Positions 519 through 54,179 of a stretch of DNA of 64,000 bases are shown one piece after another. Under the pieces are notes generated by a model that saw only the letters and a program-made list of their open reading frames with translations, had not been told where the DNA came from and made no database searches. Within the stretch, counting starts at the first letter, position 1. Each line of letters begins with the position of its first letter. The stretch comes from Lunularia cruciata. Lineage: Eukaryota > Streptophyta > Marchantiopsida > Lunulariales > Lunulariaceae. Both the position numbers and the translations under genes were made by a program. The stretch is from the NCBI GenBank assembly GCA_948567375.1, contig OX419757.1:52263665-52327664 (forward strand), written 5' to 3'.

Positions 519-1644
519 TGTCATGCCATTTGTAGTGCCGCATCTAGATGCTCGGACACTAGAGTTCCAATGATAGTAGTTAGAGTTATTTCAGCAGTTT
601 CTCAGAGACTAATTTCCGATGGTCAGATTTTGTGTTTGGGGTACCACCGTCACTTTACACCATTTGCACCGTCGAGTGTGCCATCAGTGGGACCGTTGGG
701 GTTTTAGAGCTAGCTTGAGTCCAGGGGGTATAGTTTTGAAGTGAGCTCTAGAGAGCTCACTTCCTTGATGTTGAGCCTTCGAGTTCTTGGCTATGGTGGA
801 CAGAGGTCTGTGAGCCGGCTTGTCTCTCACTCAAGATGAACCTCTGATGGCTATTATGGTAGCGCACCATGGACTAAGAAGGCAAGGAACCCCAACTCCA
901 TCATACTCCTCCAAGGCTAACACTCCAAGACTCAAGACATTGCTCACTAGAGAACTCAATGAGAGAGAGATAGTTGTAAATGAAAGGATGATGAGTACCT
1001 CCTCACCCCTTGTTTATATACTTGTGAAATAGTTACATACCAAAGTTACTAATTACCGTAGTAACTCAAGTTACTAGACTAAAAGTCAAGTAAAGTCAAA
1101 AGGTAGAAAGGAATATCCATTCACATGGGCATATTCCCTAAGCATGTGGTCTTATCTTGACCCAACCACTAAGTCAAGGATTCCTTCACATGGGCTATCT
1201 TTGGACTAAAGAAGAATCCAAAACAAAAAGGCTTGTGGGCCCAAGAGTTCTCAACTCTTTCCTCAAAGCCAAACACCTAGGAATAATACCAAGTCAACAA
1301 ACTAAAATCCAAAATAGTGGTGCTCATCTTTTCTACTTCCTCTAAAGTAAGGTCCCCTCTATCTTAGCTATAATTAACTTTAGCTAACCATGACTAATAT
1401 AGAACCATCCTTTATCTTTATATAAATAATATCTCTTAAATACTTGTAATACCAAGCTAAATATCACAATACCATACACATGCACAAATGGGTGTTACAG
1501 GCCGACAAGAGTCACCTGGATTCTCTATGCTTGAGTGGGTGCGACTTGACTGTAATAAGTGCCCAATTATTGATAGTTTATAGAGTGACAGATCAAGTAC
1601 TGATCTGAGTTGAGTTGAGTTGAGAGTGGTAAGCAATTTGATTA
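519..1644 (+). repeat. 5' terminal repeat (block B) of family 1 copy 1
   Basis: Block B begins TGTCATGCC and ends at GATTA (1644). It matches 10601-11049 near the 3' end, apart from a nested 691-bp insertion (809-1499) and a small indel. Immediately downstream is CATCAGAG, which shares seven bases (ATCAGAG) with the usual initiator-Met tRNA primer site, so the end of B behaves as the U5 border. Unlike an ordinary 5' LTR, it lacks the roughly 107-bp block A that precedes B at the 3' end. Confidence 0.85.
809..1499. mobile_element. Solo LTR nested in the 5' terminal repeat
   Basis: This is a 691-bp sequence starting TGTGAGCC and ending GTGTTACA, i.e. TG...CA ends, with no coding potential. It interrupts block B: the flanks GGTC (805-808) and GGCC (1500-1503) look like a 4-bp target duplication with one later change, and removing the insert restores the B sequence seen at 10601-11049. 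A TATA-like stretch lies near 1415-1430. No related internal region is seen in the window, so the family is unknown. A solo LTR is the simplest reading; a small TRIM-type element is the alternative. Confidence 0.7.
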
Positions 1645-2900
1645 CATCAGAGAAGTGAAGTCAGGGGGAAATCGGGTGCAAGAACTTTGAGTGTTGATGG
1701 TATCTCCAAGCTCGGTGGATCGTTGGTAGCTCGATTCAAGTTCAGTGTTTCCCTAGTGTGTAGAAGCTCGTTCAATTGATGCAGATTTGGCAGTTAGGCA
1801 GACGGTGTACGGAAGCACTGGCCAAATTTTGAGTAAAGAAGGAACAAATTTCGAGCAGTGGTTGTGATTATGAGCTCAAGAGGTGAAGGAAGGACCAATT
1901 TGCTGCGAGTTGGGCTCAGAAGGTCAAATTGAAGGTGGAGTTGTCAAGCTATTCTCATGAATTTGTGATTTGGAAAAACCCGTGTTGTCAATTTGGCTCG
2001 AGTGGAAAGTTAGCGGGGGATTTGGCAGGCAGCCAACTTTAGGGTTTATATCATATTTTACGTCAGATTTTGGTTGGGATTTACATCAGATTTTGGCCAG
2101 ATTTGGAGGAGTTCCACTATTTGGCCAGAATTGGAGGAGTTTTGCTAGTTTGAAGGACTTTCGTAGATTTGGATAAGTTTCACTAATTTTGGAGGAGGTT
2201 TGAAGTGGCAAGAAGAAAGGCCTCATTTGGCTGAATTTAGAGGCTTTGAGGCATATGGCTGCGGGCTATGAGAGGCTATGAAGGCCAGAAGGGCCAACAA
2301 GCCAGCTTGTTGGCGTGAGGCTAGCTAGTTTAGAGTAGATCTTGGTCATTGGTTGACAAAATCTGCCTTTCTTGCTAGATTGTGCGCAACAGGGTTTGAC
2401 CCCTAGATCTCTTGTTCCTAGACTGGTGCTCTAGCCAATTGGTCCACCCTCACTTGTTGTCCTAGTGATTGTGCCACTGTTATCTATACACTTGTAGCTT
2501 TGGCTAAGAGAGGCAGTTTGATCCCATTCTTGGTGATCTTGGTAGCTTAGGACTTAGATACGAACTGAACTTCTCTTATGTCAAATGCCAAATGGTGGCA
2601 GAGTCAGTCCCATGTTGTGTTATGAGATGGAGGGTTTTCGTTTAGATTTCTTGTGATTGGACCTCCTCCATTCTCTACTTCTTGTTTGTGCACCACGTTT
2701 GTGTGAGGTGCCATGACTTTTGAGCATTGGTGCTTTGGTATGCTCTTGGTAGTGAGGCTAGAATAATCACCCGTCAGACTACCTTTGTTTCTCTGCGGTG
2801 AGGCAGGAAGTGATGACCTGCAGACTGTGAGAGTGTGTGTTATGATGGCAGGTTACAGGTTTCTCTTTCCCCTAGTGTAGTTATCTCGGTTAAAGTTACA
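1645..2900 (+). other. Untranslated leader of family 1 copy 1
   Basis: This stretch of about 1.25 kb between the primer-site region and gag has no long open frame. The same leader is found in copy 2 (52500-53730, inverse). It carries a tRNA-like sequence in antisense (2384-2453) but no other recognisable element. A long leader is common in plant Ty3/gypsy elements. Confidence 0.6.
2384..2453 (-). other. tRNA-like sequence in the element leader
   Basis: Read on the minus strand, the stretch has a D-arm-like CCAATTGGCTAGAGCACCAG, a CTAGGAA anticodon-loop-like segment and a B-box-like GGGTCAAACCC. The anticodon stem does not pair well, so it is not a working tRNA gene. The same stretch lies at 52951-53024 in copy 2, so the element carried it before the copies separated. 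It may be a captured tRNA or SINE piece. Confidence 0.5.
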
Positions 2901-4700
2901 TTAGTGGGTGGTGCTTAGTTGGTATTGGCACGTGGTGGTGTTGGCGCATGGTGGTGTTGGCACTTGCGGTTGCAACTTACGGTTGCAGTTGAGGGTTCGG
3001 GTTTGCTGTTGTGGTTACTTTGTCACGACAAAGTTCTTTGGAGATTCCAGAGGAGTTAGCCCTGCAATATGTAGTAGCTTTACTCGGAGTGGTGCTTGGT
3101 ATCAGCCTATATCTCAGGTCCCAGTGAAGGAGGAGATTGACTCTGAGTTGGAGTTTGACACAGGAGCTGATTCAGTTGAGAGTGCACTTGGTGTGTCCGC
3201 ATTGTTGTTGTGGGACATGGACGAGATTTATGGGGCCTCCAAAGGCCCTAGGCGTTACTCTGGTATAGTGGGTACCATTGAGTTGGATGACTTCATCCAG
3301 GAGTTCAATAGTTGGTGTGATCTGTAGTAGATACGGAACCCAACTTTGTTCATACCCTTCATGGCATGGAAGGGGTTGTTTCAGTATCTGGAGGGTCCAC
3401 CGATGGATGACTACCATGAGTTGAGGAGAGCTCATTTGGAGGAGATTGAGTTATGGAGACAGTATTGGTCTCCACACTATGTCTCCATCACTTCAAGCCC
3501 GATGGCCAAGAGTAGATCGAGTGTACCTACAAGTTCTAGCTTGAGTAGTGTGGGTGGAGCTAGTGAGGTGCACTAATTGGAGATAGTGCTACTACGAGTG
3601 GAGGTACCGCTGCAGGAGGTGGTGTGGTACCGGGGTTTAACCCCATGGTGGAGTTCTTCCTATGTTGAGGTAGAACTACTAGGGAGTGCGGATTGACAAG
3701 CTGAGGAGCTTGTAGGAGTTCCAACGGAAGGCTAAAGAGAGCCTACGCAAGGCATACACTCGTATGAGACGGCTGATCAGTTTCACTCAGGGAGTTACTG
3801 AGGCCCATGCAGTCCAGTTTTGGTATGGGATATTGGACAGGGAGTTACTACATAGAGTTTGTGATGCTACGTTGTTACAGGCTACTTTGCCTACTTTGGC
3901 AATGGTCTTTGGTTTGGCTGAGCGTATTGAGCTCAACATGGTGGAGGAGAGAGTGGTGACATCTAGATTTGGTAGGGAGACCTCATCCACAATTGTGACT
4001 TCTTTTAGAGTGCAGCAGAGTGCACCACGCCCAGTTGGTTTTTGAGGACAGGGTGGACAGCCCAGATCCTATGGAGCGAGTGGAAGGCCTAGTGGAGTTA
4101 GACCTTTACTCTCATTTTTGGGTCAGCAGTAGCCAGTGAGTGGTGGTGTTGCTTGTTGGACTTGTGGTGGACCTCACCATCGGAGAGAGTGTACTCAAGG
4201 CAATGGACCTGATACCTTAGGTGCATCACAACCAGCACAGAGGCAGTGTGAGCATTGCCACAAATTTGGTCACACTAGTGACCGGTCTTTTGACCTACAC
4301 CCGGAGTTACGGAGTGGTAGGGTTGCTATGGCTGGTAGTAGAGGAGCTCCAGTTCATGGAGGACGATGTGGTAGAGGTGGTGGTAGAGGATCTACACCTA
4401 ATAGGGGTGCAGTACTTGCCCTTACTTCTGACATAGCTATGGCTACTCAGATTGAGCAGTTGGAGCAAAGATTGGCTAGTATGGCTATTGCTCAGAGGAG
4501 ATCAGATTTGGGTGCTGAGGCTTCCACCTCATATGCTAGTGATAGAGATGCTTTGGACTTCATGTGCAGAGCAACACAGGTGGATGTATGTGCAGCAGTG
4601 ACTAGGAGTGCAGTATGTGCTCTAGAGCCTAGAGGAGCATCAATGGAGTTGGACCCACAGAGAGGAGAGGTTGGGAGACAGGTCAGACTTCCCTAGTCTT
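2900..4700 (+). pseudogene. gag remnant of family 1 copy 1
   Basis: Gag packages element RNA. Recognisable parts are an acidic N-terminal segment (about 3110-3330), a central helical capsid-like region (3600-4040), and a nucleocapsid with two Cys/His knuckles at 4150-4310 (CWTCGGPHHRREC and CEHCHKFGH), followed by a Gly/Arg-rich basic stretch. The knuckle followed by a DLHPE-like sequence is typical of plant Ty3/gypsy gag. The same order is seen in copy 2 at 50690-52500. The region is decayed and not translatable as it stands. Confidence 0.75.
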
Positions 4701-5710
4701 TCACGCTATCTGAGGCATTGCAGACAACATCCATGGTTCCTAGGCGTCCCAGTGCAGGTGTGGTAGGTGGTGATGGAGTGCATGATGGACTACCTACTAG
4801 TCAGCCACCTACTACTACACAGACTAAGTCTAGCATGATGTTGGGGGCGGCTCAGCTGATTATGCGGCATCCTTTGTTTTTGGCCAGTGATATGTTTACA
4901 TTGGGAGTTGACCTAGCCCTAGTATTCCGGTTGGCTGCCACGTTGTGTGAGAGTAGGGATGGTATGGTTCCTACTTCCAATGTAGAGGTGGTTGGTAGTG
5001 GAGCTGACTTGGTTGAGGAGCATGGGATCCGTTCAGCGACCAGTGGTTTATGGCAATCAGCAACGGCTGGACTAGAGGAGTTGCCAACTAGACTGGCCTT
5101 TGAGAGAGCACGATTCACACCTGGTGTTGTCCTATTGGATAACCAGAGGGGGATTTTTTGTTTGGTGGGACCTTCAAGGAAGGTCTATACACCATAGAGA
5201 GTCTTGTTAGACTCTGGTGCGCAACCCCTTATGTTGGGGAAGGTTGTAGTTGTCGGTCTGGAGTTATAAAAGACCAATGTGGAGAGGTGTCCATTTTAGA
5301 TCTAGACATCTCTAGGTGGTGGTTCAATACAGTACATCACACGTGGGGAGCTTGTTATCTAGGTTCAGCCTGGTCATCTGACTGATAGCTTGGTGGTGAG
5401 AGCTTAGGCTATTGCAACAATAGCTTAGTCATATGATGTGCTAGTTGGGGGAGCAGTGTTATACCCCATGGGTTTCAGCATTGACTATTGGGAGGAGACA
5501 ACCTCTTATAGACCTGGTTGGCAGTTTGGTGAGGGACGGGTATGTCGTCTACCAGTACGCTTCAGTAGTGGCAGTCTTGGCTCACTACAATCCAAGACCA
5601 TAGCAGCATCAGGTTTAGCTTTCAGTGGTGCAGTTACTTGGCCTTGTGACTTGTTGGAGGGGAACGCCCATGTAGAAGATACTCCAGTACTAGAGGAGAT
5701 CACTTGACTT
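4700..5710 (+). pseudogene. Protease region of family 1 copy 1
   Basis: This is the retropepsin-type aspartic protease region, with the active-site signature LLDSGAQP clearly readable in copy 2 (about 50170-50220) and its counterpart here near 5200-5230. It is preceded by a conserved linker and followed by a spacer (YPMGFSIDYWEE) that leads into the methyltransferase. The family role is cutting the gag-pol precursor. Decayed. Confidence 0.7.
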
Positions 5711-5879
5711 TGGAGTACGAGTAGGATTGTTCCATCCACTTTGGATGTTCCATGTGGAGTTCAGAGGAGGCATTGCAGCAGCATGTAGATCAGTTGGTGC
5801 AGCAGGCTTGGAGTGGAGCCTTCGTACCATCAGGAGATGAGTGTGAGGATGAGCCTCTAGAGGCGATTGCTTTGACACC

Positions 5880-6860
5880 TCTGGATACCACACTCATTGC
5901 TTGGCAATATCCATTAGAGGAGATATGCCTATTGGAGTTGTTTGGTGGGATCAGCACCGGACTAGCTGCGGTGTTACAGGCGGGTATACGAGTACAGAGG
6001 TACTTGTATGTAGAGAGAGATGAGACTGCTAGGCAAGTTTCTCTACATCATGTGGCACACTTGGCCTATTGATATCCAGAGTTATTACCGATGTCAGCAG
6101 TCAGAGGTTACCAGAAGGCCCTACCAAGAGACATTTCCTTACTGGGGGCGCATGACCTAGAGAGACATAGGCCTATTCACTTGGTGATTTCTGGATGGCC
6201 ATGTTAGGGACATACACGTGCGGGCCGCGGTTTGGGTCTTCAAGATCCTCGTTCTAGTGTGTTTTGGGAGATGTTACGAGTACTACAACATCTCTAGGTT
6301 CATTAGTCTGTTTCTCTAGCTTACCTTTTGGAGAACATTCCTTTGATGGGTGATTCTTGCACCAGAGTGGTGGCGAGTACACATCAGGTCCACTCTTAGA
6401 TGGGACCTGTTGTATTGTTAGATGCAGCCAGAGTGGGATCACGGGCTCATCGTCTTGGTCTTTGGTGGACAAACCTCTTACCCAAAGAGGTTCTACATCG
6501 TGCTTATGATGGGATTCAACGACTTGACCACATCTTTGTTGCTGATATCTTGGATATTGAGCGTCAGTCTCAGACAATGGTAGTGGCTGATAGGTCACCT
6601 ATGGCAGTGGTGAACCTAGTTGGACAGCCTAGAGTTGCATTTCCCACACTCATGAGTTTCCTAGGCTCTCATGCTTTTCAAGAGGGAGGATCTGGACTTG
6701 TTTGGGACTCACAATTATAGCAGTTGGTGGAGCCCAATGCTGATGAGAGAGAGCGGGCAATGGGTTTTTGCATCAAGGGTTTAGGGTTTTAGAGACATCT
6801 AGGTGTTAGAGGCATCTAGGTGTCAGGTGTTAGATCAGGCTATGGACCTAAACTATTTGA
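5880..6860 (+). pseudogene. Cytosine-C5 DNA methyltransferase domain within pol (family 1 copy 1)
   Basis: This domain lies between protease and RT. Visible motifs are motif I, LLELFGGISTGLAAVLQAGI (about 5932-5991), which resembles the DNMT3/DRM form LSLFDGIATG; the motif IV SGWPC core with its Pro-Cys (about 6191-6206); a motif VI LLEN sequence (about 6327-6340); a motif VIII-like segment, LDAARVGSRAHR (about 6418-6455), close to the DAKEVSAAHRAR pattern of DNMT3; a motif IX-like ERERAMGF (about 6748-6771); and a motif X-like QAMDLN. Known family role: transfer of methyl from S-adenosylmethionine to cytosine. A C5 enzyme fits better than the adenine methylase of DIRS elements because of the PC and ENV motifs. 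Decayed; both copies carry the domain. Confidence 0.8.
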
Positions 6861-7225
6861 CCTGGATTGTGAGCCTTGGCTTGGTAGAGCAGTGTAGGAT
6901 GTGCTTGATCGGTATCACCACTCAGACACTGATGAGCCATGTGCCTATCGAGACGATTCAAGCACATGCTGGGGGCGATGGACCGAGTGGACATGGTATT
7001 CTTGCGACACATCTAGTAGCTACTAGGGAGAGTGGTCTACTTGGAGTCCATCTAGGTGAGCATGAGCTACTTGGATTACACCCTTGGTCCACATGGGATG
7101 CAGCTAGAGGACGTGTGGAGCTTGCAGCCAGAGTGGAGGGAGTTTTTCACACAGAGGTTGGGACCTCTAGTGGTCAGGAGCATGACACTATTGCTCCCAA
7201 GGGCCCAGTATAGCAGCCAGTCAAT

Positions 7226-8680
7226 ATGTCTTCCACTCTTACTACAGTTACAGAGGATACTTGGGAGCCAGATCTTGGACCCAAGCTTATTGGAGAGGAA
7301 AGATGGGAGGTTTGGAGGTTCTTGAGGAGTCACACGAGTTGTTTTGCCTTCAGTATGAAGGATTTGGGTGCTCTAAAGGGACCTAGTATACGGATTGAGC
7401 TGACTAGCGATACACCAATTTTCCGATGTCCATATTGTTATAGTGACATGGAGAGGACATTGATTCAGAGCCGGAGTAGTGACCTTTTTGAGGTTGGGTT
7501 GGTGGAGATTTCACATGGAGAGTATGCATCAGCAACAATGATGCCAGCCAAGAAGGATATGCATGGCAACTATACCAATAGGCGAATGTGTGGAGATTAC
7601 CGTCCTATCAACCGATAGACCAAGGCTGATTGGTATGTCATGCCTACATCGGAGGAGATTTTTGATACAATTGTGCATGCAAAGATCTTCAGTACTTTGG
7701 ATCTTCGAGCGGGATATCATCAGTTGCCAATCAAGGAGGAGGATAAGTCCAAGACAACATTTTAGGCTATTGATCCTCACGGCAAGGATGTGTTATATTA
7801 GTGGCGATTCTTACCATTTGGGTTAAAGAACGCTCCTGTTGAGTTCTAGAGGGTCATGGATAGGATCCTAGCTGGATTGGATTTTGCTCGGTGCTATATT
7901 GATGACATTTTGGTTTATAGTACTACTGTGGAGGAGCATGAGAGACAATTGTTGGAGGTGTTTGAGAGGTTGAGATCTCATGGACTCAAATTACATCCTG
8001 GGAAGTGTAGGTTCTTCCACAAGCAGGTTGAGTATTTGGGTCACACTATCTATCCCGGAGGACTTGGTGTTTAGCAAACCAAGGTGGAGGCTATTGCATG
8101 TATTCTTTGGCCTACGGATGTGAGCAAAGTGTGAGCATTCCTTGGGTTGGCAAACTTCTATCACCGCTATGTTAGAGGATTTAGTGCCATTGCCAAGGCC
8201 TTGACAAAGCTGACCAAGCTTACACAGGAGTGGTGTTGGGGAGATGAGCAAGAGAGAGCTTTTGTAGAGCTCAAGGAGAGGTTGACATCTGCTCCTATTT
8301 TGAGGAGACCGATCAGGGGACGACCATTTCATGTTCACACTGATTGGAGTATGTTGGGGCTTGGAGCAGTGCTCACCCAACATGATGATGAGGAGAAGGA
8401 GTTTGTGGTGGCCTATGCTAGTCGCTCCAACAATTCAACGGAGGCAAAGTATAGTTCATATGAGGGGGAGTGCTTGATAGCAGTTTGGGCAGTAGCACAT
8501 TTCTGATGTTACCTATTTGGTAACCCCTTCACTCTCATCATTGATCATCAGCCACTGAAGTGGTTGATGGAGTCCGACAAGCTTTCAAGGAAGCTTGCAC
8601 GATGAGCTCTGATTTTACAAGAGTATGATTTCACGGTTGTTCACAGACCTGGAGTGGTGAACCGTGATGCAGATGGGTTG
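7226..8680 (+). pseudogene. Reverse transcriptase and RNase H of family 1 copy 1
   Basis: This is Ty3/gypsy-type RT: CGDYRPINR (about 7590-7616), FSTLDLRAGYHQLPI (about 7690-7735), LPFGLKNAP (about 7810-7840), and the catalytic YIDDILVYS (about 7897-7923). Then come HPGKCRFF and a VEYLGH stretch, and an RNase H beginning near HTDWSMLGLGAVL (about 8336-8375), with an SYEGECLIAVWAV block. The order and motifs are those of Metaviridae pol. Decayed. Confidence 0.85.
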
Positions 8681-8929
8681 AGTAGAAACCCATGTCCCAA
8701 CCAGCAGGATCAGACCGGAGCACGTTGGCATGGTGAGACAGATGAGGAGATGGTGCCAGGTTGGCATGCATCGGCCTTTCTGTGTATATTTGCAGAGGCT
8801 TTGGTGGTATCTCTCAGCGCATACATGAGGAGTTATTGAGGTCACAGATCTAGAGAGTGAAGATATTGGTACAGTTCAGCAAGACATTCATGATGGTGTC
8901 TTAGTGATGGACTATCTTTGCACTGGTGT

Positions 8930-9920
8930 TGTGGGTGGCGCAATTGAGGCCAAGGAGAGAGACCATGTTCTTCAGCAATCCAGACAGTTCAGATTGGAGG
9001 GTAGACACCTTTTGCGTGTATAGGAGAATGGTAAAGTGCAAGTAGTACCACTTCCATCCCAAAGACCACAGTTGGTCCGTCATGCTCATAAGGAGCTAGG
9101 ACATTTTGGAGTAAAGCATATGTATAGCTTACTCTAGAGTCATTATTGGTGGCGCGGTATGCAGACCAAAGTACAATAGTTTGTTGCCAGATGTGTGGTT
9201 TGTGATCGAGTTAGAGCATCATTCAATGCTCCTATGCCACATTTACACCCATTACCTATCATGGGATTGGGTTACCGTTGGAGTTTGGACTTCGCCGGAC
9301 CTTTACCACTTATTGTAAGACATCATCGGTATGTTTTGGTGATGGTGGAGCACTTCTCCAAGTGGATTGAGTTGGTGGCACTTCTTGACAAGTCTAGTGA
9401 AGAGACAACTTACTCATTTCTGGATCGAGTTCTTAGTCATTTTGGTGCACCAGTTGAGGTTTTCACTGATCAGGGTACAAAGTTCTTGGGGGAGTTTCAA
9501 GTCTTGTGTGACAAGGCTTTGATTGATCATTATACTACATCCCGAGATCACCCTAAGGCAGATGGCTTAGCAGAGAGAGTGGTTCAGATGGTGAAGAGAG
9601 GATTGCAAAAGTATGGTTTGCGGAGAGGCCACTTGGGAGATTGGGATCTCCAATTACCTTGGTTGGCCTTGGGCTATTTGTTCAGCCAGCAAGCCTCCTT
9701 AGCATCCTTCTCTCCATACTTTCTACTCTATGGACGAGATCCAGATTTACCTACAGCCATTTGTCGAGATGTTACTGTAGTTTTGGACTTGATGACCCCG
9801 ATGTATGGATAAGCGCATGTTCTCAGCGGGCAGAGATCTTTTGGAGAGTGATGCCGATGGCCTTTGAGAACTTGGCGATTGCTCAACATAGACATACTTT
9901 ACGCTATGCTACCATTTGAG
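8930..9920 (+). pseudogene. DDE integrase of family 1 copy 1
   Basis: Retroviral-type integrase. The HHCC-like N-terminal region is near 9080-9210. The catalytic core begins YRWSLDFAGPLPL (first Asp, about 9270-9310), continues to VEVFTDQGTKFLGEF (second Asp, about 9453-9495), and on to the ADGLAERVVQMVKRGL segment (Glu, about 9560-9605). A DDE integrase makes short target duplications, consistent with the 4-bp CTTG pair at the ends of this copy. No tyrosine recombinase is seen. Decayed. Confidence 0.85.
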
Positions 9921-9984
9921 GAGGAGGTTATAGACCCTTGATCCGTCAATTTCATCCAAGCAATTATGTATATCTATAGCAGAC

Positions 9985-10323
9985 AGCACCGATGACACTT
10001 GATGTTTCTACATGCCGCACTATCTTGAGAGTGTGTGAGGTTTTGCCATCTCGAGTCCTTGTATTAGAAGGACATGATGGTGTTGTTTGGAAGGATCATG
10101 TGCACAATTGTGCGCCATGCCACCTCTCGAACATTGATGGTACTATGGACCCAAGCTTGGCACTTGTATGTGCAGGCTTGAGGTGTATGTTATGTGGCTC
10201 TTCTGGTGGAGCTGCTACTATGTTAGTGTGTGATAGCTGTTTGAGAGGATGGCATATGGCATGTAGGACTCCTCCCCTCATGGTGGTTCCTCAGGGACAA
10301 TGGTTATGTTCTAGATGTACTTG
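9985..10323 (+). pseudogene. Integrase tail with C-terminal PHD finger (family 1 copy 1)
   Basis: After the integrase comes a short SH3-like tail (LPSRVLVLEGHDGVVWKDH, then CAPCHLSNIDG), and then a C4HC3 zinc finger at about 10188-10322: CMLC, VCDSC, GWHMAC, WLCSRC. The spacing and the Trp before the last Cys pair fit a PHD finger, a reader of histone H3 tails. In chromoviruses the same place is usually taken by a chromodomain that guides integration. Copy 2 has the same finger (45145-45310). A targeting role is inference. Confidence 0.8.
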
Positions 10324-10481
10324 ACCTATAGCTAGTTCATTCTTTATATGATATAGATTGCAGACATGCGACTAACGATGGGGCTCCATAGCATCCGGCC
10401 TCCTGATCTTTGCCTATTAGAGGGTATACCATATACTTAGAGTAGATGGCTATCTGGAGTTAGAGGGGCCTAACCGCCAGC

Positions 10482-11155
10482 TAGGGGGGCAATTGTGGCA
10501 CTTTAGAGTCTATGTATGACTTATGTGTGAGTTGTGCTTCTATAGTGTATGATGTTGACAGCGATGTATGTTGTGTAGCAATGTATATACGCACGATAGC
10601 TGTCACGCCATTTGTAGTGCTGCATCTAGATGCTCAAACATTGGAGTTCCAATGATAGTAGTTAGAGTTATTTCAACAATTTCTCAAAGACTACTTTTTG
10701 ATGGTCAGATTTTGTGTTTGGGGTATTGACTTCACGGTGGGGCCCACCATCACTTTGCACCGTTTGCACCGTCGAGTGTGCCATCAGCGGGACCGTTAGG
10801 GTTTCAGAGCTAGCTTGAGTCCAAGGGGTATAGTTTCAAAGTGAGCTCTAGAGAGCTCACTTCTTTGATGTTGAGCCTTCGAGTTCCTGGATATGGTGGA
10901 CAGAGGCCGACGAGCGTCACCTAGATTCTCTATGCTTGAGTGGGTGTGGCTTGATTGTAATCAGTGCCCAGTTGTTGGCAGTTTATAGAGTGACAGATCA
11001 AGTACTGATCTGAGTTGAGTTGAGTTGAGAGTGGTAAGCAATCTGATTATTGTGGCACTTTAGAGTCTATGTATGACTTATGTGTGAGTTGTGCTTCTAT
11101 ATTGTATGATGTTGATAGCGATGTATGTTGTGTAGCAATGTATATACACACGACA
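10482..11155 (+). repeat. Polypurine tract and compound 3' terminus A-B-A' (family 1 copy 1)
   Basis: An AGGGGGGCAAT polypurine tract (about 10483-10493) is followed by block A (10494-10600, starting TGTGGCACTTTAG), block B (10601-11049, starting TGTCACGCC and ending GATTA) and A' (11050-11155), a second copy of A ending CACGACA. A and A' differ at only a few bases. By tract and primer site the expected LTR would be A+B, but the 5' end of the element has B alone and the 3' end carries an extra A'. The outer edge meets the CTTG target duplication. Confidence 0.85.
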
Positions 11156-12529
11156 CTTGATGCATTGAAATTTTTTGGCAAGCACTCTTCTAGATACTCA
11201 AGATCAAGCTTACTTTGTCCACGGCTTATCATCATCAAATTGATGGACAAATTGAATATGCAAATTGCACTTTGGAGAATATGCTTCATGCTTTTATCAA
11301 TGTTCACCATACCAATTGAGATAAATGTCTTGCAATTGCAGAGTTTTCATACAATAATTCCAAACAAACAAGCACCAAATTCTCTCCTTTCTTCCTCAAT
11401 TTTGGCCAAGATCCACTTGTTCCAGATTCCCTTCTTACTCCTCCACCATCTCATATCCCTCATACTTCTACCTTCTTGACCACCATATTCCAATCCCTAC
11501 AACAAGCAGAATCTCATCTCCTTATTGCTCAAATCATCATAAACAATATGTAAAACGCCATCATCATGATCTCACCTTTCAAGTCAATTATAAGGTCATG
11601 TTCTTGTCTAGTAACCTACCCCTCTCACTTGATACCCAAGTTTGTAAATGTGCTTCTAATTAGATAGGGCCCTTTGATGTCACTCAAATCATTTTTGCTT
11701 ATCTACTTGCCTTGCCTTGCCTTATCATAAGCACATCCACCCCGACTTTCATATTTCTAAGTTGAAACTCTTTGTTCTTAATCCATCTTCTTTTTCCTTT
11801 TGTGTTCAACTTCTTCCTCCTCCCACCTTTTATCAATAATCATGAAAAGTATGAAGTTGATTGTATCTTTGCATATTGCCATATTCAAACAAAGCCATCA
11901 ACAACATATAGAGAACAAAATCCTCTAGAAAGGGTATCTCCTTCATGATGCCACTTGGGAGCCTCTTTCTCATCTACAGAATACACAAATGACTATCTAA
12001 GAGTTTGAAGCTTCAATGGCAACAAAAACATCATCAACTAGCAATGGGAGACTATGTAACAATATGGAGTTTAGTGACAAAGTTAGTCAAGGTTAACAAA
12101 GTTGAAAATAGGCCAAATTAGCCTAGAATATTTTAGAAGTATCTAGGAAGCTACTTGGTACCTCCCAAGTATTGAGTAACATGCATACCAAGTGGTGACT
12201 TCTAAGAGGAAGCTTCTTGAGAAGTCTCTTGGCTAGCTTAGCTTGCACCCCAAGTAAGTAGCTTCTAGAAGCTTTGAACTAGCTTCACTTGCATGCCAAG
12301 TAGACAACTTCTAGAAGGAAACTTCTTGAGAAGCTTCCCGATAACTTGGCTTGCATTCCAAGAAAATGGCTCAAGGAAGCTTCTTCAAAAGCTTCTTAAG
12401 AGCTTCGTAAACTCCATGTAAATACCAAAGTCAAAGCTCATGCTAGGTATTTGGAGTTTCCCATACACTTAAGTGTCCCAATATGATCTTCCATTTTCCT
12501 ATTTCTCTCCTTGGTCTTGGTCTTTTACA
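11156..12529 (+). mobile_element. Family 2 Ty3/gypsy copy A, right part with 3' LTR
   Basis: This continues the integrase gene broken at 518: about 11160-11530 matches the integrase of copy B at 23140-23520, and 11580-12000 matches the integrase tail and chromodomain-like end. The 3' LTR is 12055-12529 (475 bp), TGTAACAATATGG...CTTTTACA, matching 24060-24418. Broken, with many inactivating changes. Confidence 0.8.
12055..12529 (+). repeat. 3' LTR of family 2 copy A
   Basis: TG...CA ends. The middle of the LTR is an array of imperfect units rich in the palindrome GAAGCTTC and in AGCTTCTAGAAG (about 12130-12420). The alignment with 24060-24418 stops exactly at CTTTTACA, which sets the right edge. 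Confidence 0.8.
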
Positions 12530-14583: not shown

Positions 14584-14585
14584 GA

Positions 14586-24059: not shown

Positions 24060-24418
24060 TGTAACAATATGGAGTTTAACGATGAAGCTAATTAGGGCTA
24101 ACAAAACAACAAATAGTCCAAATTAGCCTAGAATATTCTAGAAATATCAAGCACACTTCTTGGGAAGCTTTTTGAGTAGCTTAGCTTACACGCCAAGTAG
24201 GTAGCTTCTAGAAAGAAGCTTCTTGAGAAGTTTCTTGGTTAACTTGGCTTGCACTCCAAGAAAGTGGCTCAACAAAGCTTCTTGAGAAGCTTCTCAAGAG
24301 CCTTGTATGCTCCCTATAAATACCAAAGCCTAAGCTCATGCTAGGCATTCAAAGTTTCCCAATGTCCCAATGTGATCTTCCATTCTCTTATTTCTCTCCT
24401 TGATCTCGGTCTTTTACA
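24060..24418 (+). repeat. 3' LTR of family 2 copy B
   Basis: It runs from TGTAACAATATGGAG to CTTTTACA. Just before it is a 31-base tandem echo of the LTR start (24029-24059). It contains the same GAAGCTTC-rich units as the 12055-12529 LTR, though fewer, and a good TATA box, CCCTATAAATACC, at about 24312-24324. Confidence 0.8.
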
Positions 24419-39100: not shown

Positions 39101-41727
39101 GTGGATCTTGGGATATCGGGGGAGAAGTACTAGTCCGTACAGAAGTCCTTGGTGAATGAGCATTGTGTGAGGTATCCACCAACGCTTGATTAGAGGAGAC
39201 CTCTTGAAATGGTCCAGATATGCATGGCCCAGATGGAAATGCATTAGCCCTAAAAGGACCGGCGATTGAAGTCTCATCCTCAGACGACAGAGCACCAACT
39301 GGCTGTGTGGTCACCTTCCTATGTCCTCCTGATTCTGTACTCGGTGAAACATCGAGGGATTGTGTAAATAGACGATTTTGATTCTGAGAAGTCCCACTTT
39401 CCTGGTTCGGTTCTTGAAGAACCCCACAACCTGTGGAGTCCGCGGAAGCAGTTTGTGCCGTACCTCCAGAAGCCTCATTAACGGGGTTCTGACCTCCAGA
39501 AAACACACCATAAGCCCCAGCAACTAGAGGGGCTGTGTGAAGGAACCAGCTGGGCCGAGCATTCGTGGAATTCTGGCTTTGTCCAGAGGCATTCAGTAAT
39601 GCCGATACATCGTCCTCATGATCAGCACTTCCCCTATCATTTGGGATCTGTAATCCGGACGAATGGGGACGACTATGAGAGCCCTCCACAGGAGGCACTC
39701 TTGAGTGTGTTTCGCGTTTAAAGATGACGGAAGCATCGCTTGTCTCCTTCTGCACAGCAACTGACCCACTTGAAGAGCAGCAGTCATCGGGCAACCCTTC
39801 CTGGCGCCGGGGTAATAGAAAGGCTTCACCTAAAGCACCGCTAACTGGAAAAGGAACGTCAGCCGCTGAAAGTGATGCTATTCGTGCCATCATGCTTTGA
39901 CCAGTAGAACTTGTTGCACCACTTGAATTCAAAGCAAGCATTTCAGCCAAAGCCGACGCTGCCAACTTCAATGAAGAACCAGACTGATTTTGAGTTCTGG
40001 ATCTCTCTAAAACATTTAGTGCAAATACAGAGTTTATGTCTCCACCTGCTGCTCCACTCGCACCACTTAGTCCTGCACGATCCACGCTCTGAAAGTGATT
40101 GTAAGTTGGACGACGACCCCTTGATATGTAGCCGGCTGGATCCATCATTCCTGCTTGCAAACACATGAATTGGATCAAATATCGTATGACTACTTGTCAC
40201 CAAGAGTTATTGGCACGGGGTGCCAATAACTTTCTATCTAACGTGTTATTATTTTCTCCATGACGTGACGAAGATGTTAAATTCCAGATGTGACAGTTAA
40301 CTTTAACGCCGTGACCACTGCAAGATGAGACTAGAATTGAAAAAACTGAGGGATATACGTACCGTCGTACCTTGGGCATACAAATGCTCGTACTGTTTCC
40401 AGCGCCATTCCTCGGGGCTCATGTGCTGGTGATATAGAAGGATACCAGATTCACTGAGAATTTTGTCGTCCTCTTCAATTCCAAGGCTTTTGAACTTACC
40501 GGCTAAAGGTGAAGTAGCTGTCGTGTTGTAGGGATTGAACAATGGCGCTGATGCTTGAACAATCGGCTTTTCAAAGGGTCCTGAAGAAACCAGTGAAAAG
40601 TCGCACGAGGACTCTCGTATTCCCGATCCCTCAGAAGAACACACAGGACCGTAACAAGTGCTACGGGGGGAAAGGGAATGTGTAGCAATCATCGGGTTAG
40701 ACGAAGTGGCAGAAGCACCAGAGAAAAGTGAAGGTGAAGTGGACTTTATTGGCCGAGGTGCAGTTTCTGGAGAATGCATAGGTCGGGATGAAGCATCATG
40801 AAAACTGTCCACCCCATGAAGATTTGCGGAAGCCATACGAGAAATACGACTTGGAATTGGGTCACCGTATGCAGAAAAGTCCTCACTGCAATTACCAAAC
40901 GTGGGTGGATGATCCTTACCGGGGTAGAAGGCTGATGCGTAAGGATTAAAAGAGAAGCGGTTAGATAAGTGCGGGAAATCGGAAGGAACATTTGGAGGAG
41001 GAAAAGACGAGAAATGAGGAGAGGATATTGACGCAAAAGACGTGGATGATATAACAGCATTTGGCGATGAAACGGCAGAATTGAATTCACGGGAGGGAGG
41101 AGAAAATTTGGAGGCGAAACTTTTACTCGTAGAGTCGCACAAAGGGTATTGAGGTGATGCTGATACAGCTGGATAGAATGCTTCTGATTTTCCAGAACTG
41201 TAACTGGAATTGTTTTGGTTGCCATTATAACCAGGAAATGGCCAGTATGAGACCAATTTCGAGCTGTTGTCCACTCCATACGCAGGTGCAGAATTTACAT
41301 TTCTTTCAGACCATCGATCATAAGAAGAAGGATGAGCTTCACCGGAGTAATGAGGTGCAGGTTGACCTTCAAAAAAAGTCATGTTAGGATGATAACTCTG
41401 TGAAAAGCAGGAATTGGGAGGTGGTGGAAACCTTGCTGGAGAAAGCACCAGAGGAGGATAGCTTCCTGTGGGAGAGTAAGGAGAAACTTCTGGAGGGCGA
41501 CACGTTCCTAAGGGAGAATATGGGGCAGCTTCTGACAAAGACAATGGAGGAGGAGGTGGCAAATTAAGCCCGCTCTCAAACATGTTGTTCATGCTAGCTT
41601 CACAAGCTACATTTGGTGCGCAGGATGCCTCCGAAGCCAGAACACTCGACATAATACAGGAAGACGGGGAAGAATTCACAGGGAGCGGAATTGGGTCCCA
41701 TAAGAAGGCATTGACGACTCTGTTCAC
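36164..41727 (-). CDS. Large Pro/Ser-rich protein with a coiled coil, five exons; function unknown
   Basis: Proposed exons on the minus strand: 41727-40371, 40150-38670, 38366-37757, 37167 to about 36835 or 36856, and 36768-36164, predicting roughly 1,450 aa. Donors and acceptors are GT-AG and phases agree (0 after exon 2, 1 after exon 3, 1 after exon 4); the exon 4 donor is ambiguous between two sites. Exon 1 encodes a low-complexity Pro/Ser/Tyr-rich region with repeated SPTGSYPP/YSPLGTC-like units, ending in MSPEEWRWKQYEHLYAQG, perhaps a conserved block. Exon 2 is Ser/Thr-rich with a helical ALNVLERSR/LAASALAEMLAL part. Exon 3 has a charged coiled coil (DIDLRALKKMVAAEEREERL to RLAAERANAS). 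Exon 5 is acidic and ends SQDLEEEAGWEHV. No enzyme domain, signal peptide or membrane segment is seen. I do not recognise the family; a scaffold or regulatory protein is a guess. Exons 4-5 could be a separate gene. Confidence 0.7.
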
Positions 41728-43920
41728 ACAACCACCTCGTTCGTCTTGATCCCCAAACTCAGAATTGAGCCGGTGACACCAATTAGAAATACGCCTCCCC
41801 TAATACTGCACATGGCTCTTCGTCACTATAAAGTCACTCCCCCTGGGAAAGAAGAAAGAGTGCTCAGACTACACAACGTGCGCACAGCTCAACAAACTCT
41901 CCAACAGGCGCTTCGCTTCACAGTCCACCTTGATTCAGATCTACAACACTAAACCTTCACGACCTGTAATTGCAACTACCGGTCGACTGCTTCAACTCGA
42001 ACCTACACGACCTACCATCCCCTGCATTGCCACACGCAAATCGATCCCTTAATCACACCCAAACACAGACGCATCAAAACCATTCCACTCAACAATTGTC
42101 CACCTTTTTCTTTTCTATTCTTTTTCTTTCACACAAAGACCACCGACAATCTCAATTCTCTCGAACGAACGCTCGAGAAGTCTCCTGCACTCAAAAAATT
42201 GGAGACCCTTCTTCTCATTCGACATCTCAATTGGACCAAACAGCACTCTTCCCTCCCCCCAACCTAAACTCTTCAGTCCCGACCAGAGTAGACGTGATAA
42301 AAGCCGACTCCGTCACCGCGAACCGTCCGTGGTTACTCCCCTCACTTCTGATTCATCCATTTTGGCTTCCGATTGAGAATTGGACAGAAACCGCTCCGAA
42401 TTGGACCCCCTCCTTCCCTCCCCTCCCTCCCTCCCTCCCTCAATCGATCGATTGAAGAGAGAGAAGCTCTAAAAGCCAACCATCACCTCAAGTCGTCTTT
42501 CTCGTGTGTACAGGAAAGGCGTCACAGTAACTCGTAAAAGGTTATGGTAAACTTCTGGAACTACCTTGGGTGATTTCATTTACCAGGACCCACCAAAAGG
42601 TCACGACGGTTGGGATTGGCTCCAATGTCCAGGATAGTGTGGCTTATGTGGCACGTGGTGACCTTACCAGGTTTTCAATCATTGACAACCCTGTAGACCT
42701 CCCGATGTTTACTTGGACCTCAAGCTTGGTCACTTGATCCTAAGCAGAACTGGACTTAACTTTGGCGATTCAACTTAACGGCACCCGAAGTTAGCAGAAA
42801 GATTTAACAGGTTGACGTGGACCTAGTGAGTCCATTTTGGAATAAGTACATCTCGAAAGAGGTGATGTAAGCTGGGAAAAAAAATATCAACATCGGATAT
42901 TGCATGCTTTTTTGGAACGTGGTTTATAGAAAGTATAAAGAATCTAGAGGTGTTTAACTTTCACTCACTTGTCACATGGCTTATCAAATTGCAAGCTATC
43001 AGGTATACGGAGCGACGTTGTTTAGGGTCTCCATTAGAGACATGGAAATGATCATCGAGGAAGATCTAATTACAAGTAAGCCAGGAAATATTGAAGATAC
43101 CAGTAGTTTTGAAAAATATCAGAAATTGAAATTATTTGAAGATCGCGAGAGACAAACTAATAGAACGGCAATAGTCGGGATGCCTGAATTTGTCAAGGAA
43201 AACTAGAGATACTAGAAATTATTATGATGATAATATGAAGAAAGGTAGAATTGAAAAGGTGTCTCGTATACATAAGTCGTGAATAGATAAGAGATATATC
43301 TATATTTATGTTTCGGTTATGTTTTCAAAAGCTTTGATGTTTGCCTACGCATTGTATTTAGCCCAAACTTCGGGCTTAAACACATTAACTGGCAAAGACC
43401 TTGCTGCTGACGCTTGGGCTTGAACTCCCAAGCCTTTTTCTTTAAGTCTAAACTTTTGGGCCCAGACTCTTAAGCTCAAACAAGACCTGCAAACTTCCAA
43501 GCCTTTTCCTGGGCCCGGGCATCCGAGTCTAAAGCTTTTCTTGGGCTGGGCATTTGAGTATGAACATAGATCCAAAAGTTGGAGAAAGTCTCTAGATGGA
43601 ACCTTTTTATGTTGTTTTGATCCAAATTTCTTAGGAATTTGGACCCGATTTACTAGAGGAGAGAGATTTACACTTTGGGACGTCATTGGATTAATTATTT
43701 GTAAGTTCAAAAAAGGTAATGGAGAGATGGAAGCATATTTTTGGAGGTGCAAATATACTATTGCATACATTACATATACATACCTACAGATTGATCTACA
43801 CAAATTTGCACAATATTAAACCAAATTCTTTTACCAAGGTAAGGTATGTGAGTGCTATCACAAACTCGGCGTAGTTTGTGAATGAAGCTTTGAAAAAGAT
43901 TCCACATCTTCTAGAAATCT
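41728..43920. other. Upstream region of the five-exon gene and spacer
   Basis: Pyrimidine-rich leader-like sequence to about 42450, with a (CCCT)n microsatellite at about 42414-42440 followed by CAATCGATCGATTG, a perfect palindrome. Beyond that no gene is recognised; 43345-43560 contains repeated CTTGGGC/AAGCCTTT-type words. Confidence 0.4.
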
Positions 43921-44062
43921 GATTGTATCAAATGACAAACAATTTTGCATATAGAATAGAGGGTGAGAGAAGGGTAGGAAAATCTACATATGATTGTATC
44001 AAATGACAAACAATTTTGCATATAAAATAGAGGGTGAGAGAAGGGTAGGAAAATCTACATAC
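43921..44062 (+). repeat. 71-bp tandem duplication
   Basis: Two head-to-tail copies (43921-43991, 43992-44062) starting GATTGTATCAAATGACAAAC and differing at only two or so bases. It is recent by that measure, and lies 240 bases left of family 1 copy 2. Confidence 0.9.
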
Positions 44063-44306
44063 AATCACGCTAGACGGGAGGATGAGATTAACTTTAGGAG
44101 ATACGATTGCATAATCTCTTGTGAAACCTTGGTCCAAAAAGACGATGGTGTGAAACAATGGATATCAAAAGAAGATGGCAATTTTTTTCCTTGCACATGT
44201 TATGAGATGTAAGAAGTGAGGTGGACATGGCACAAGATTGAGTCCAAGGAATAGATTCAATTGATAGTATTGATCGTGTCTACGGCCTTCAAATATTATT
44301 TAAATA

Positions 44307-44965
44307 TGTCATGTGTATATACATCACTATCTACATCATCCACTATAGAAGCACAACTCACACATAAGTCATACATAGACTCTAAAGTGCCACAATAATC
44401 AGATTGTTTACCACTCTAAACTCAACTCAACTCAGATCAATACTTGATCTGTCACTCTATAAACTGCCAACAATTGTGCATTGATTACAGTCAAGCCACA
44501 CCCACTCTAACTAAGAGAATCTAGGTGATGCTCGCCGGCCTCTGTCCACCATAGCTAGGAACTCGAAGGCTCAACATCAGAGAAATGAGCTCTCTAGAGC
44601 TGCACTTCGAAAGTATACCCCCTAGACTCGAGCTAGGTTTGAACCCTAATTGTCCCGCTGACGACACACTCAACGGTGCAAATGGTGCAAAGTGATGGTG
44701 GGCCCCACCGTGAAGTCAGTACCCCACACACAAAATCTGACCGTCGGAAAGTAGTCTATGAGAAACTACTGAAATAACTCTAACTACTATCACTGGAACT
44801 CCAATGTCCGAGCATCTAGATGCGACACTACAAATGGTGTGACAGCTATCGTGCATATATACATCGCTACACAACATACATTGTTGTCTACATCATACAC
44901 TATAGAAGCACAACTCACACATAAATCATACATAGACTCTAAAGTGCCACAATTGCCTCCCTAAT
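44307..44965 (-). repeat. Compound 3' terminus A-B-A' and polypurine tract (family 1 copy 2)
   Basis: On the + strand this is A' at 44307-44394, B at 44396-44844 and A at 44845-44952, then the complement of the polypurine tract (ATTGCCTCCCTAA). A' is slightly shorter than A. The A/B border reads GCACGATAGCTGTCAC in element sense, the same as in copy 1. Confidence 0.85.
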
Positions 44966-45573: not shown

Positions 45574-46500
45574 TCAAAAGCCATCGACATCACTCTCCAA
45601 AAGATCTCTGCCCACTGAGAACATGTGCTCATCCAAGTCCAAAAGTATAGTAGCATCTCGACAAATGGCTACAGGTAAATTTGGATCTTGTCCATATAGT
45701 AGATAGTACGGAGAGAAGGATGCTAAGGAGGCTTGCAGGCTGAACCGATATCCCATGGCCAACCAAGGTAACTGGAGATCCCAATCTCCCAAGTGGCCTC
45801 TCTGCAAACCATACTTTTGTAATCCTCTCTTCACCAACTGAACCACTCTCTTTGCTAAGCCATCTGCCTAAGGGTGATCTCGGGAGGTAGTACGGTGATC
45901 AATCAAAGCCTTGTCACACAAGACCTGAAACTCCCCCAAGAACTCTATACCTTGATTAATCAAAACCTCAACTATTGCATCAAAATGACTAAGAACTCGA
46001 TCCAAGAACAAGTAAGTTGTCCCTCCACTAGACTTGTCAAGAAGTGCCACCAACACAATCCACTTGGAAAAGTGCTCCACCATCACCAAAACATACCGAT
46101 GATGTCTCACATTTAGCGGTAAAGGTCCGGCAAAGTCCAAACTCCAACGGTAACCTAATCCCATGATAGGTGATGGGTGTAACTGTGGCATAGGAGCATT
46201 GAATGCTCTAACTCGATCACAAACCACACATTTGGCAACAAATTGCTATACCTTAGTTTGCATACCGCACCACCAATAATGGCTCTGGAGTAAGCTATAT
46301 GTACGCTTTACTCCAAAATGTCCTAGCTCCTCATGAGCATGACAAACCAACTATGGTCTTTGAGATGGAAGTGGTACTACTCGCACTCTACCATCCTCCC
46401 ATACACACAAAAGGTGTTTGCCCCTCCAATCTGAATCGTTTGGCTTGCTGAAGGACATAATCTCTCTCCTTGGCCCCAACTGTACCACCCACAACACCAA
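45574..46500 (-). pseudogene. DDE integrase (family 1 copy 2)
   Basis: Core blocks YRWSLDFAGPLPLNVRHHRY, FLGEFQVLCDKALIDH and VQLVKRGLQKYG match copy 1. Retroviral-type integrase; decayed. Confidence 0.8.
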
Positions 46501-46539
46501 TGCAAAGATAGTCCATCACCTAAGACATCATCATGAATG

Positions 46540-48180: not shown

Positions 48181-48539
48181 ATCATAGGAGTGGAAGACAT
48201 ACTAATTAGCTACTACACTGGGCCCTTGGGAGCAACAGTATCATACCCCCGACCACAAGAGGTCCCAACCTCTGTGTGAAAAACTCCCTCCACTCTGGCT
48301 ACTAGCTCCACACATCCTCTAGCTGCATCCCAAGTGGACCAAGGGTGTACTCCAAGTAGCACACGCTCACGTGGATGGACTCCAAGTAGACCACTCTCCC
48401 TAGTAACTATTGGTTGTGTCCCAAGAATACCATATCCACTCAGTCCATCACCCCCATCATGTGCTTGAATCGTCTTGATAGGCAAAGGGCTCACAAGTGT
48501 CCAAGTGGTGATGCCTATCAAGTGCATTCTACGCTGCTC

Positions 48540-49535: not shown

Positions 49536-49599
49536 AGTAATTGACTCTAGAGGCTCATCCTCACACTCATCTCTTGATGGTACAAAGTCTCCACTCCAA

Positions 49600-50600: not shown

Positions 50601-50689
50601 TGGCTGACTAGTAGGTAGTCCATCATATACTCCATCACTACCTACCACACCTGCATTGGGACGTCTAGGAACCATGGATGTTGTCTACA

Positions 50690-52500: not shown

Positions 52501-53730
52501 CCCACTAATGTAACTCTAACCAAAATAACTACACTAGGGGAAAGTGCAACCTGTAACCTGCCATCACAACACACACTCTCACAGTCTATAGGTCATCACT
52601 TCCTACCTCACCGAAGAGAAACGAAGGTAGTCTAATTGGTCATCACTCCAGCCTCACTACCGAGAGCACACCAGAGCACCAACGCTCAAAAGTCAAGGCA
52701 CCTCACAAACGTGGTGCACAAATAGGAAGTAGAGAATGGAGGGGGTCCAATCACAAGACATCTAAACAAAAACCCTCCATCTCATAAAACAACACAAGAT
52801 TGACTCTGCCACCATTTGGCATTTGACATAAGAGAAGTTTGTATCTAAGTCTTAAGCTACCAAGATCACAAAGAATGGGATCAAACTACCTTTCCTAGCC
52901 AAAGCTACATATAAGTATAGATAACATTGGCACATTCACTAGGGCAACAAGTGAGGGTGGACCAATTGGCTAGGGCACTAGTCTAAGAACAAGAGATCTT
53001 GGGGTCAAACCCTATTGTGCACAATCTAGCAGGATGGGCACATTTTGCCAACCAATGACCAAGATCTACTCTAAACTAGTTAACCTCATGCTAGGCTTGC
53101 TGGCCCTTCTAGGCCTTCAAAGCCTCTCATAGCCCACATCCCTATGCCTCAAAGCCTCTAAATGCCATGAGGCAGCCAAATGAGGCCTTTCTTCTTGCCA
53201 CTTTGAATCTCCTCCAAAATTTAGCAAAACTCCTCTAAACTAGCAAAACTTCTCCAAATCTGGCCAAACATCAAAACTCCTCCAAAACTGGCCAAAATTT
53301 GACATAAAATCCAGCCAAAATCTGACGTAAGCCCTAAAGTTGGCTGACCGCCAAATCCCCCACTAACTCTTCTCTTGAGCCAAATTGAAACACGGGTTTC
53401 TCCAAATCACAAATTCCTAAGAATAGCTTCCTAACTACACCTTCAATTTTACTTTTTGAGCTCAACTCGCAACAAATTGGTCCTGCTTTCACATCCAGAG
53501 CTCAAAATCATAGCCATTGCTCAAAATTTGCTCCTTTTGTGCTCAAAAAGTGGCCAGCGCTTCCGCACACCGTCTGCCTTACTATCAAATTTTCCATCAA
53601 GCAACGAGCTTATGCACACTAGGGAAAAATTGAACTTCAATCGAGCTACCAATGATCCACCGAGCTTGGAGATACCACCAACACTCAAAGTTCTTACACC
53701 CAATTTCTCCTTGATTTCACTTTTCTCATG
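52501..53730 (-). other. Untranslated leader of family 1 copy 2, with tRNA-like sequence
   Basis: Matches the copy 1 leader. The tRNA-like sequence (52951-53024, here reading on the + strand) has GACCAATTGGCTAGGGCACT and GGGGTCAAACCC. No long open frame. Confidence 0.6.
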
Positions 53731-54179
53731 TAATCAGATTGTTTACCACTCTCAACTCAACTCAACTAAGATCAGTACTTGATCTATCACTCTATAAACT
53801 GCCAACAACTAGGCACTAATTACAGTCAAGCCACACCCACTCTAGCTAAGAGAATCTAGGTGACACTCGCCGGCCTCTGTCCACCATAGCCAAGAACTCA
53901 AAGGCTCAACATCAGAGAAGTGAGCTCTTTGGAGCTGCACTTCAAAAGTATACCTCCTGGACTTGAGCTAGGTCTGAACCCTAACTGTCCCGCTGACGGC
54001 ACACTCGACAGTGCAAATAGTGCAAAGTGATGGTGGGCCCCACCGTGAAGTTAGTACCCCAAACACAAAATCTGACCGTCGGAAAGTAGCCTTTGAGAAA
54101 CTGCTGAAATAAATCTAACTACTATCATTGGAACTCCAGTGTTCAAGCATCTACATGCGACACTACAAATGGTGTGACA
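53731..54179 (-). repeat. 5' terminal repeat (block B) of family 1 copy 2
   Basis: A 449-bp block, exactly the length of B at 44396-44844 and at 10601-11049. It starts TGTCACACC in element sense and ends GATTA at the leader. No block A is attached at its inner end and none lies outside it before the AATA target duplication. Confidence 0.9.

Follow-up and report, generated by a model that had tools for sequence, protein, structure and literature searches.

How does a retroelement that encodes a DDE integrase come to carry split direct repeats in place of ordinary long terminal repeats (LTRs)? The question is raised by a 64,000-bp stretch of the Lunularia cruciata genome (GenBank assembly GCA_948567375.1, contig OX419757.1, forward-strand positions 52,263,665 to 52,327,664), which was analyzed as a whole and is called the window; positions below count from its first base. 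Two copies of one Ty3/gypsy-type retroelement family, each about 10 kb long, lie in it in opposite orientation: e1 (519-11155, plus strand) and e2 (54179-44307, minus strand). In a self-comparison of the window, e1 and e2 were 87.6% identical over 9.7 kb, and both showed sequence decay. The self-comparison and direct reading gave the block order B-internal region-A-B-A' in both copies; neither had full, identical LTRs at its two ends, the 5' end being B alone and the 3' end A-B-A'. An initial annotation of the window had proposed this split-repeat layout together with an encoded DDE integrase, and both were found. The layout corresponds to a circular permutation of the end repeats, as if a copy had been ringed and then reopened at an inner site. 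The explanation that we favor, with slightly more confidence than doubt, is that a Ty3/gypsy-type element with LTR-like reverse transcription integrated in circularly permuted form at an inner junction.

Structure, edges and coding content of the two copies

The blocks and edges of the two copies were located as follows.

515-518, unstranded: left target duplication of e1, CTTG
519-806, plus strand: first part of the e1 5' B block, starting TGTCA (self-comparison and reading)
809-1499, unstranded: nested insert resembling a solo LTR within the e1 5' B block, TGTGAG...GTTACA (TG...CA ends), with GGTC/GGCC flanks (self-comparison and reading)
1500-1644, plus strand: second part of the e1 5' B block (from 1499 on in the self-comparison)
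10493-10600, plus strand: e1 A block (self-comparison and reading)
10596-10605, plus strand: e1 A|B junction, GATAGCTGTC, the proposed closed attachment (att) site
10601-11048, plus strand: e1 3' B block (self-comparison)
11050-11155, plus strand: e1 A' block, ending CGACA (self-comparison and reading)
11156-11159, unstranded: right target duplication of e1, CTTG
22631-24418, plus strand: paralogous empty site for e1, with the junction near 23140 (self-comparison, flank alignment and frame reading)
44303-44306, unstranded: target duplication of e2, AATA on the plus strand (TATT in the element sense)
44307-44396, minus strand: e2 A' block with a 17-bp internal deletion, ending TGACA (self-comparison and reading)
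44397-44844, minus strand: e2 3' B block (self-comparison)
44845-44953, minus strand: e2 A block (self-comparison and reading)
53732-54179, minus strand: e2 5' B block (self-comparison and reading)
54180-54183, unstranded: second target duplication of e2, AATA on the plus strand (TATT in the element sense)

Both copies start with TGTCA and end with CGACA (e1) or TGACA (e2), and reading of both edges confirmed that each has its own 4-bp duplication (CTTG; AATA), so that 4-bp target duplications and TG...CA termini occurred together in 2/2 copies. When random pairs of positions 9-10.8 kb apart were drawn within the window, a 4-bp duplication was found in 1,871 of 400,000 pairs, and a duplication plus a 4-bp inverted terminus in 5 of 400,000. 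The host site of e1 is the integrase gene of another retroelement. Placed side by side, the e1 flanks aligned to an uninterrupted paralog near 23,140 with 211 of 259 columns identical and 9 gap positions, most of which lie near the joint; the empty site is therefore not exact to the base. The joined flanks gave a single integrase-like frame through the joint (DRDP*CIEIFWQALF), which is interrupted by stop codons, including one at the joint itself. The duplications outside A', the paralogous empty site and the host frame across the joined flanks indicate that A' is part of e1, as the initial annotation had held. For e2, no empty site was found within the window. Because e1 and e2 had no common flanks in the self-comparison, they represent two separate insertions, and since both have the same layout, the earlier suggestion that this layout is probably heritable was retained. 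The segments 7-518, 11158-12529 and 22631-24418 are two copies of the integrase region of that other retroelement, with e1 inserted into one of the two.

All 40 between-stop pieces of at least 70 amino acids (21 from e1 and 19 from e2) were scanned against Pfam at E 0.1; methyltransferase motifs were read by eye.

5923-6396, plus strand: DNMT3-like C5-methyltransferase motifs FGGISTG, GWPC and ENI in e1, broken by stops
7850-8071, plus strand: e1 reverse transcriptase piece (RVT_1, E 3.9e-15)
8135-8503, plus strand: e1 RNase H piece (RT_RNaseH_2, E 2.1e-28)
9180-9809, plus strand: e1 DDE integrase piece (rve, E 5.6e-12), with D, D-34-E on reading
10184-10318, plus strand: e1 PHD finger, C-terminal to the integrase (E 1.4e-09)
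45871-46245, minus strand: e2 DDE integrase piece (rve, E 1.4e-08)
49601-48911, minus strand: probable DNMT3-like cytosine methyltransferase domain in e2

RNase H of e2 was matched by RT_RNaseH_2 (E 2.3e-11), and the e2 matches to PHD, gag and aspartyl protease were under the cut-off. The domain order reverse transcriptase-RNase H-integrase, with an rve-type DDE integrase, is that of Ty3/gypsy (Metaviridae). A tyrosine recombinase (PF00589, Phage_integrase) was matched in none of the 40 pieces, which are broken, so that a decayed one could escape; nor was a chromodomain matched in any of them, whereas a PHD finger was present. The PHD finger lies at the integrase C-terminus, the position of the chromodomain in chromovirus Gypsy elements, and that of e1 is possibly a chromatin-targeting module. 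In Pol, the segment with the methyltransferase motifs (FGGISTG, GWPC, ENI/ENV) sits between a protease-like stretch and the reverse transcriptase. Its matches in PDB were weak and were all to DNMT3A/3C (17/17, best E 0.087), as were those of a profile built from the segments of both copies (16/16, best E 0.038). Another e1 piece gave sirtuin matches at E 0.5, two e2 pieces alone gave no PDB match, and none of six pieces had a Pfam match. These weak matches and the motifs suggest that both elements probably contain a DNMT3-like domain. Three scans of viral contigs, with integrase, RNase H and methyltransferase pieces, yielded no confirmed relatives.

Concerted evolution of B and candidate replication signals

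Among the four B copies, 16 alignment columns split by element, 3 by position (5' versus 3') and 2 crosswise; outside CG/CHG transitions, the corresponding numbers were 9, 0 and 0. C-to-T/G-to-A changes occupied 18-19% of cells at CG and CHG and 2% at CHH, an approximately nine-fold difference in decay that is a signature of plant-type methylation of the B copies, as expected of methylated plant repeats. Because the robust columns all group by element, B is copied from one template per round, like an LTR, and evolves in concert within each element. The A block is short and its evidence is mixed. Columns 1-2 of its alignment, outside the repeat, were left out of the counts, and columns 108-111 were handled apart as the terminus. 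Inside the block and outside CG/CHG transitions, the sole informative column is a transversion and pairs A with A' of the same element. Grouping by position is seen at columns 70 and 102, both CG/CHG transitions, and at the terminus in both elements (GATAGC in A, GACA in A'). Identities were 94.6% between the two A blocks, 93.5% between the two A' blocks, and 94.5% (e1) and 85.9% (e2) between A and A' of one element. A first reading of the site patterns, that A and A' are inherited apart, was weakened once columns 70 and 102 proved to be CG/CHG transitions.

Candidate replication signals were found at the boundary of 5' B with the internal region and directly before A.

1644-1658, plus strand: putative self-priming primer-binding site (PBS) of e1, complementary to B positions 257-271
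10483-10492, plus strand: G-rich, polypurine-tract-like run directly before A in e1
53717-53731, minus strand: putative self-priming site of e2, with 2/15 mismatches to its own 5' B

The e1 site opens with the base at which the repeated part of 5' B ends and runs on for another 14 nucleotides (nt), reading ACATCAGAGAAGTGA. Against B 257-271 or its equivalent, it showed no mismatch with e2 5' B, one with each of the two 3' B copies and two with e1 5' B. By comparison, none of 6,000 15-mers from elsewhere in the window had fewer than two mismatches to any of the four B copies, and 8 had two; in the e1 internal region, sampled at every second 15-mer, two mismatches were again the minimum, reached by 5 15-mers. 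When 4,000 15-mers were compared with e2 5' B alone, zero mismatches occurred in none, one in a single 15-mer and two in four. The e2 site pairs with its own 5' B at 13 of 15 positions and is weaker than that of e1. The partner segment, TCACTTCTCTGATGT, begins 28 (e1) or 29 (e2) nt past GTATA, a TATA-like motif chosen by eye, and the RNA is predicted to start near 757 in e1 and near 53923 in e2, that is, at about B 257. Judged from the sequence, the site at the B/internal boundary would have the self-priming geometry of Tf1. A tRNA primer site after B was also considered: ATCAGAG equals 7 nt of the initiator-Met PBS, TGG is absent, and the 15-nt self-complement was preferred. The last 18 nt of B, tried as a copy of a PBS, did not fit tRNA rules (C61). 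Rfam and tRNA scans of the window returned no match. The tract directly before A reads CTAGGGGGGCAA in e1 and TTAGGGAGGCAA in e2 and is a plausible plus-strand primer. With A delimited on its left side and B on its right side by these signals, textbook reverse transcription would give a complementary DNA (cDNA) of the form A-B-internal-A-B.

Proposed integration route and its alternatives

The A|B junction reads CGATAGC|TGTCA in both copies, and its GATAGCTGTC is one transition away from the palindrome GACAGCTGTC. At the A' end a C is still present; with this C, the junction would contain GACAGCTGTC. The other joint, B|A' (GATTA|TTGTGG), lies in an 18-nt stretch identical in both elements and equals the right end plus the left end of the predicted cDNA. 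The insertion edges coincide with A|B, and the bases GC of A (GATAGC before TGTC) are missing from both integrated ends, the outcome expected of a 2-nt-staggered cut after CA. If the right cDNA end is the end of B, A' can come to lie beyond B only through end joining.

These features are consistent with the following route. Transcription would start inside 5' B (at about 257), and the first ~15 nt of the RNA would prime at the site directly after B, as in Tf1, so that the cDNA would end on the right where B ends. Initiation of the plus strand at the G-rich tract before A would then produce the cDNA A-B-internal-A-B, with A+B as its LTR. Joining of the two cDNA ends would create B|A', in the manner of a two-LTR circle. 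Cleavage of the near-palindromic A|B junction by the DDE integrase, after CA on each strand, would leave CA-ended termini with 2-nt overhangs. The product, B-internal-A-B-A', would be inserted with a 4-bp duplication and would equal the cDNA with its left A moved to the right end. Since this integrated form again holds R, the PBS and the polypurine tract, it would be able to replicate. The initial annotation had stated that ordinary LTR replication gives identical ends; this applies to the finished insertion, whereas the signals themselves fit LTR-type reverse transcription; the unusual feature is the place at which this product is opened before integrating. Integrases of retroviruses and LTR elements are generally described as acting on linear cDNA ends. 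We tentatively suggest, at somewhat less than even confidence, that this DDE-integrase lineage normally and heritably integrates from closed (circular or joined) cDNA, with a palindromic att site inside the LTR rather than at the cDNA ends. In vitro, the integrases of foamy virus and HIV-1 each cut the palindrome formed where two of their own LTRs meet (PMC1180852, PMC1905944). In the foamy-virus study, a single cut of this kind was proposed to produce both processed ends (PMC1180852).

A number of points weigh against this route. The sample consists of two copies only. A circle would have two A|B sites, and a cut at the other would give B-A-B-internal-A, yet both copies are of the replicating type. 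Both junctions read GATAGCTGTC today, and the perfect palindrome would have been lost by C-to-T at a would-be CHG site (in B, 18% of cells are CHG transitions). The 12-mer form of the palindrome is matched equally closely (2 mismatches) at four other places in the window, so the resemblance alone proves nothing. On its own palindrome, HIV-1 integrase is reported to leave mostly 4-base overhangs, not 2-base ones (PMC1905944), and titles cited by PMC1180852 report such junctions as poor integration substrates. As for priming, the longest exact complements between the 60 nt past B and the two 3' B copies were 9 and 11 nt in e1 and 9 and 8 nt in e2, and a run of 11 is not exceptional, being reached by 24 of 3,000 controls. 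In the predicted fold of the e2 leader, the first bases are paired with the priming site, but the overall stability of the fold is not significant (z = -0.68), and CAAT comes between the tract before A and the first TG. Finally, the A and B patterns differ when the terminus is counted (Fisher p = 0.04; p = 0.12 without it), and position-type differences between A and A' are common to both elements (columns 70, 102, 108 and GC). If A' is copied afresh in each round, these differences need parallel decay; moreover, e2 A' is more similar to e1 A' than to the A block of its own element.

Other explanations have to be set against circularly permuted integration. The family may have ordinary A+B LTRs, with e1 and e2 as rare cases in which an aberrant circle or a tandem cDNA was inserted, and the signals do predict an ordinary A-B-internal-A-B cDNA. 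We consider this unlikely, although it ranks highest among the alternatives: the same cut and the same junctions were found in 2/2 copies, a linear cDNA is predicted to end in GATTA on the right, without a terminal CA, and the same layout class has been reported for the Gypsy element KnitGypsy-Dnmt3 (PMC5890265). Ranked just after it, and also unlikely, is the view that the LTR is B alone, while A and A' are separate inherited segments and A', at the RNA 3' end, is copied by an unknown extra step. This agrees with the GATAGC and GACA ends of A and A' in both elements, with the equal similarity of e1 A to e2 A and to its own A', and with the 93.5% identity of the two A' blocks exceeding the 85.9% of e2 A and A'. 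However, columns 70 and 102 are transitions of the class that decays about nine-fold faster than CHH, the one remaining informative column within A sorts by element, and sequence 3' of the strand-transfer site is not known to be copied by any step.

Third in this ranking is a route like that of DIRS/PAT elements, in which the RNA runs from within 5' B to within A' and the inner A-B templates both missing ends. Such a route would account for the split direct repeats and for A/A' differences at fixed positions in both elements. It is doubtful, since B is recopied up to column 442, and the robust columns 336-341 are located 3' of the predicted RNA start, in a part of B that this route would leave independent between the 5' and 3' copies; the primer-like site at the end of B and the lack of a tyrosine recombinase match in 40/40 pieces also speak against it. 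It is highly improbable that A' represents flanking sequence or was misassembled, given that both copies have exact duplications outside A' and that e1 has an empty site with a continuing host frame. Unequal LTR recombination was discarded by argument as the source of the layout, since it cannot put A' between element and duplication twice.

Related systems, implications and other features of the window

The initial annotation had suggested that the layout may reflect an undescribed replication or integration mode for Ty3/gypsy; the layout was, however, already noted in 2018 on a Gypsy element of Klebsormidium (PMC5890265, legend of Fig. 4c), and a DIRS-like layout on a Gypsy element is thus a known oddity. 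That element, KnitGypsy-Dnmt3 of Klebsormidium nitens, is described by de Mendoza et al. (2018, PMC5890265) as having Gypsy domains, Dnmt3 in Pol and DIRS-structured repeats. It resembles e1 and e2 in combining the Gypsy domain set with DIRS-like repeats (PMC5890265); its Pol has a Dnmt3-type domain, whereas that of e1 and e2 is probable and weakly matched. The passages of the report consulted mention no target duplications, priming site, junction or repeat mechanism, and the comparison is one of descriptions only (PMC5890265). KnitGypsy-Dnmt3 comes from an alga, whereas the host genes in the window are of land-plant type (XTH, UGT), suggesting a land plant as the setting of e1 and e2. What is added here is this second setting, the 4-bp duplications and empty site, the evidence on recopied blocks, the self-priming site and a proposed mechanism. 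Among the literature matches listed, judged largely from their listings, no other Gypsy element with a split-repeat layout was found.

PAT, Ngaro and DIRS elements carry split direct repeats, described as A1-ORFs-B1-A2-B2 (ORFs, open reading frames), and e1 and e2 share this kind of layout. They use a tyrosine recombinase and are not known to generate target duplications, whereas e1 and e2 have a DDE integrase and 4-bp duplications. Tf1, Sushi and Tcn1 elements have ordinary LTRs and carry a chromodomain, in contrast to the PHD finger of the present family, which gave no chromodomain match. Tf1-type self-priming is predicted in the plant Tcn1 and TAR lineages (PMC6317226), and in Tf1/Sushi and plant Tcn1 elements it takes the place of a tRNA site (PMC6317226), as it putatively does in e1 and e2. 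The proposed site also resembles the retroviral two-LTR circle junction, whose palindromic joined ends are cut by the cognate integrase in vitro (PMC1180852, PMC1905944); that junction joins LTR end to LTR end, whereas the att site proposed here lies inside A+B, ~108 bp from the predicted left cDNA end.

If the proposed route is correct, a family always opened at the inner junction would be a natural test of circles as integration precursors and a natural case of circle-junction integration, with split repeats kept without a tyrosine recombinase. It would also suggest a stepwise origin of split repeats from an LTR element, with one frame for the priming site and the purine tract and a second for the integrase site. 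A plant survey of 13,566 elements used predictions with like LTRs and TG...CA at the element ends (PMC6317226); copies of the e1/e2 type break this rule and may therefore be overlooked.

Elsewhere in the window, the minus strand of 36164-41799 holds several long ORFs of up to 510 amino acids. The three that were scanned had no Pfam match at E 0.01, and the ORFs are possibly exons of one plant gene. The self-comparison also revealed short two-copy tandem duplications at 20351-20534, 24013-24075, 43917-44061, 55077-55310, 55455-55676 and 63746-63860.

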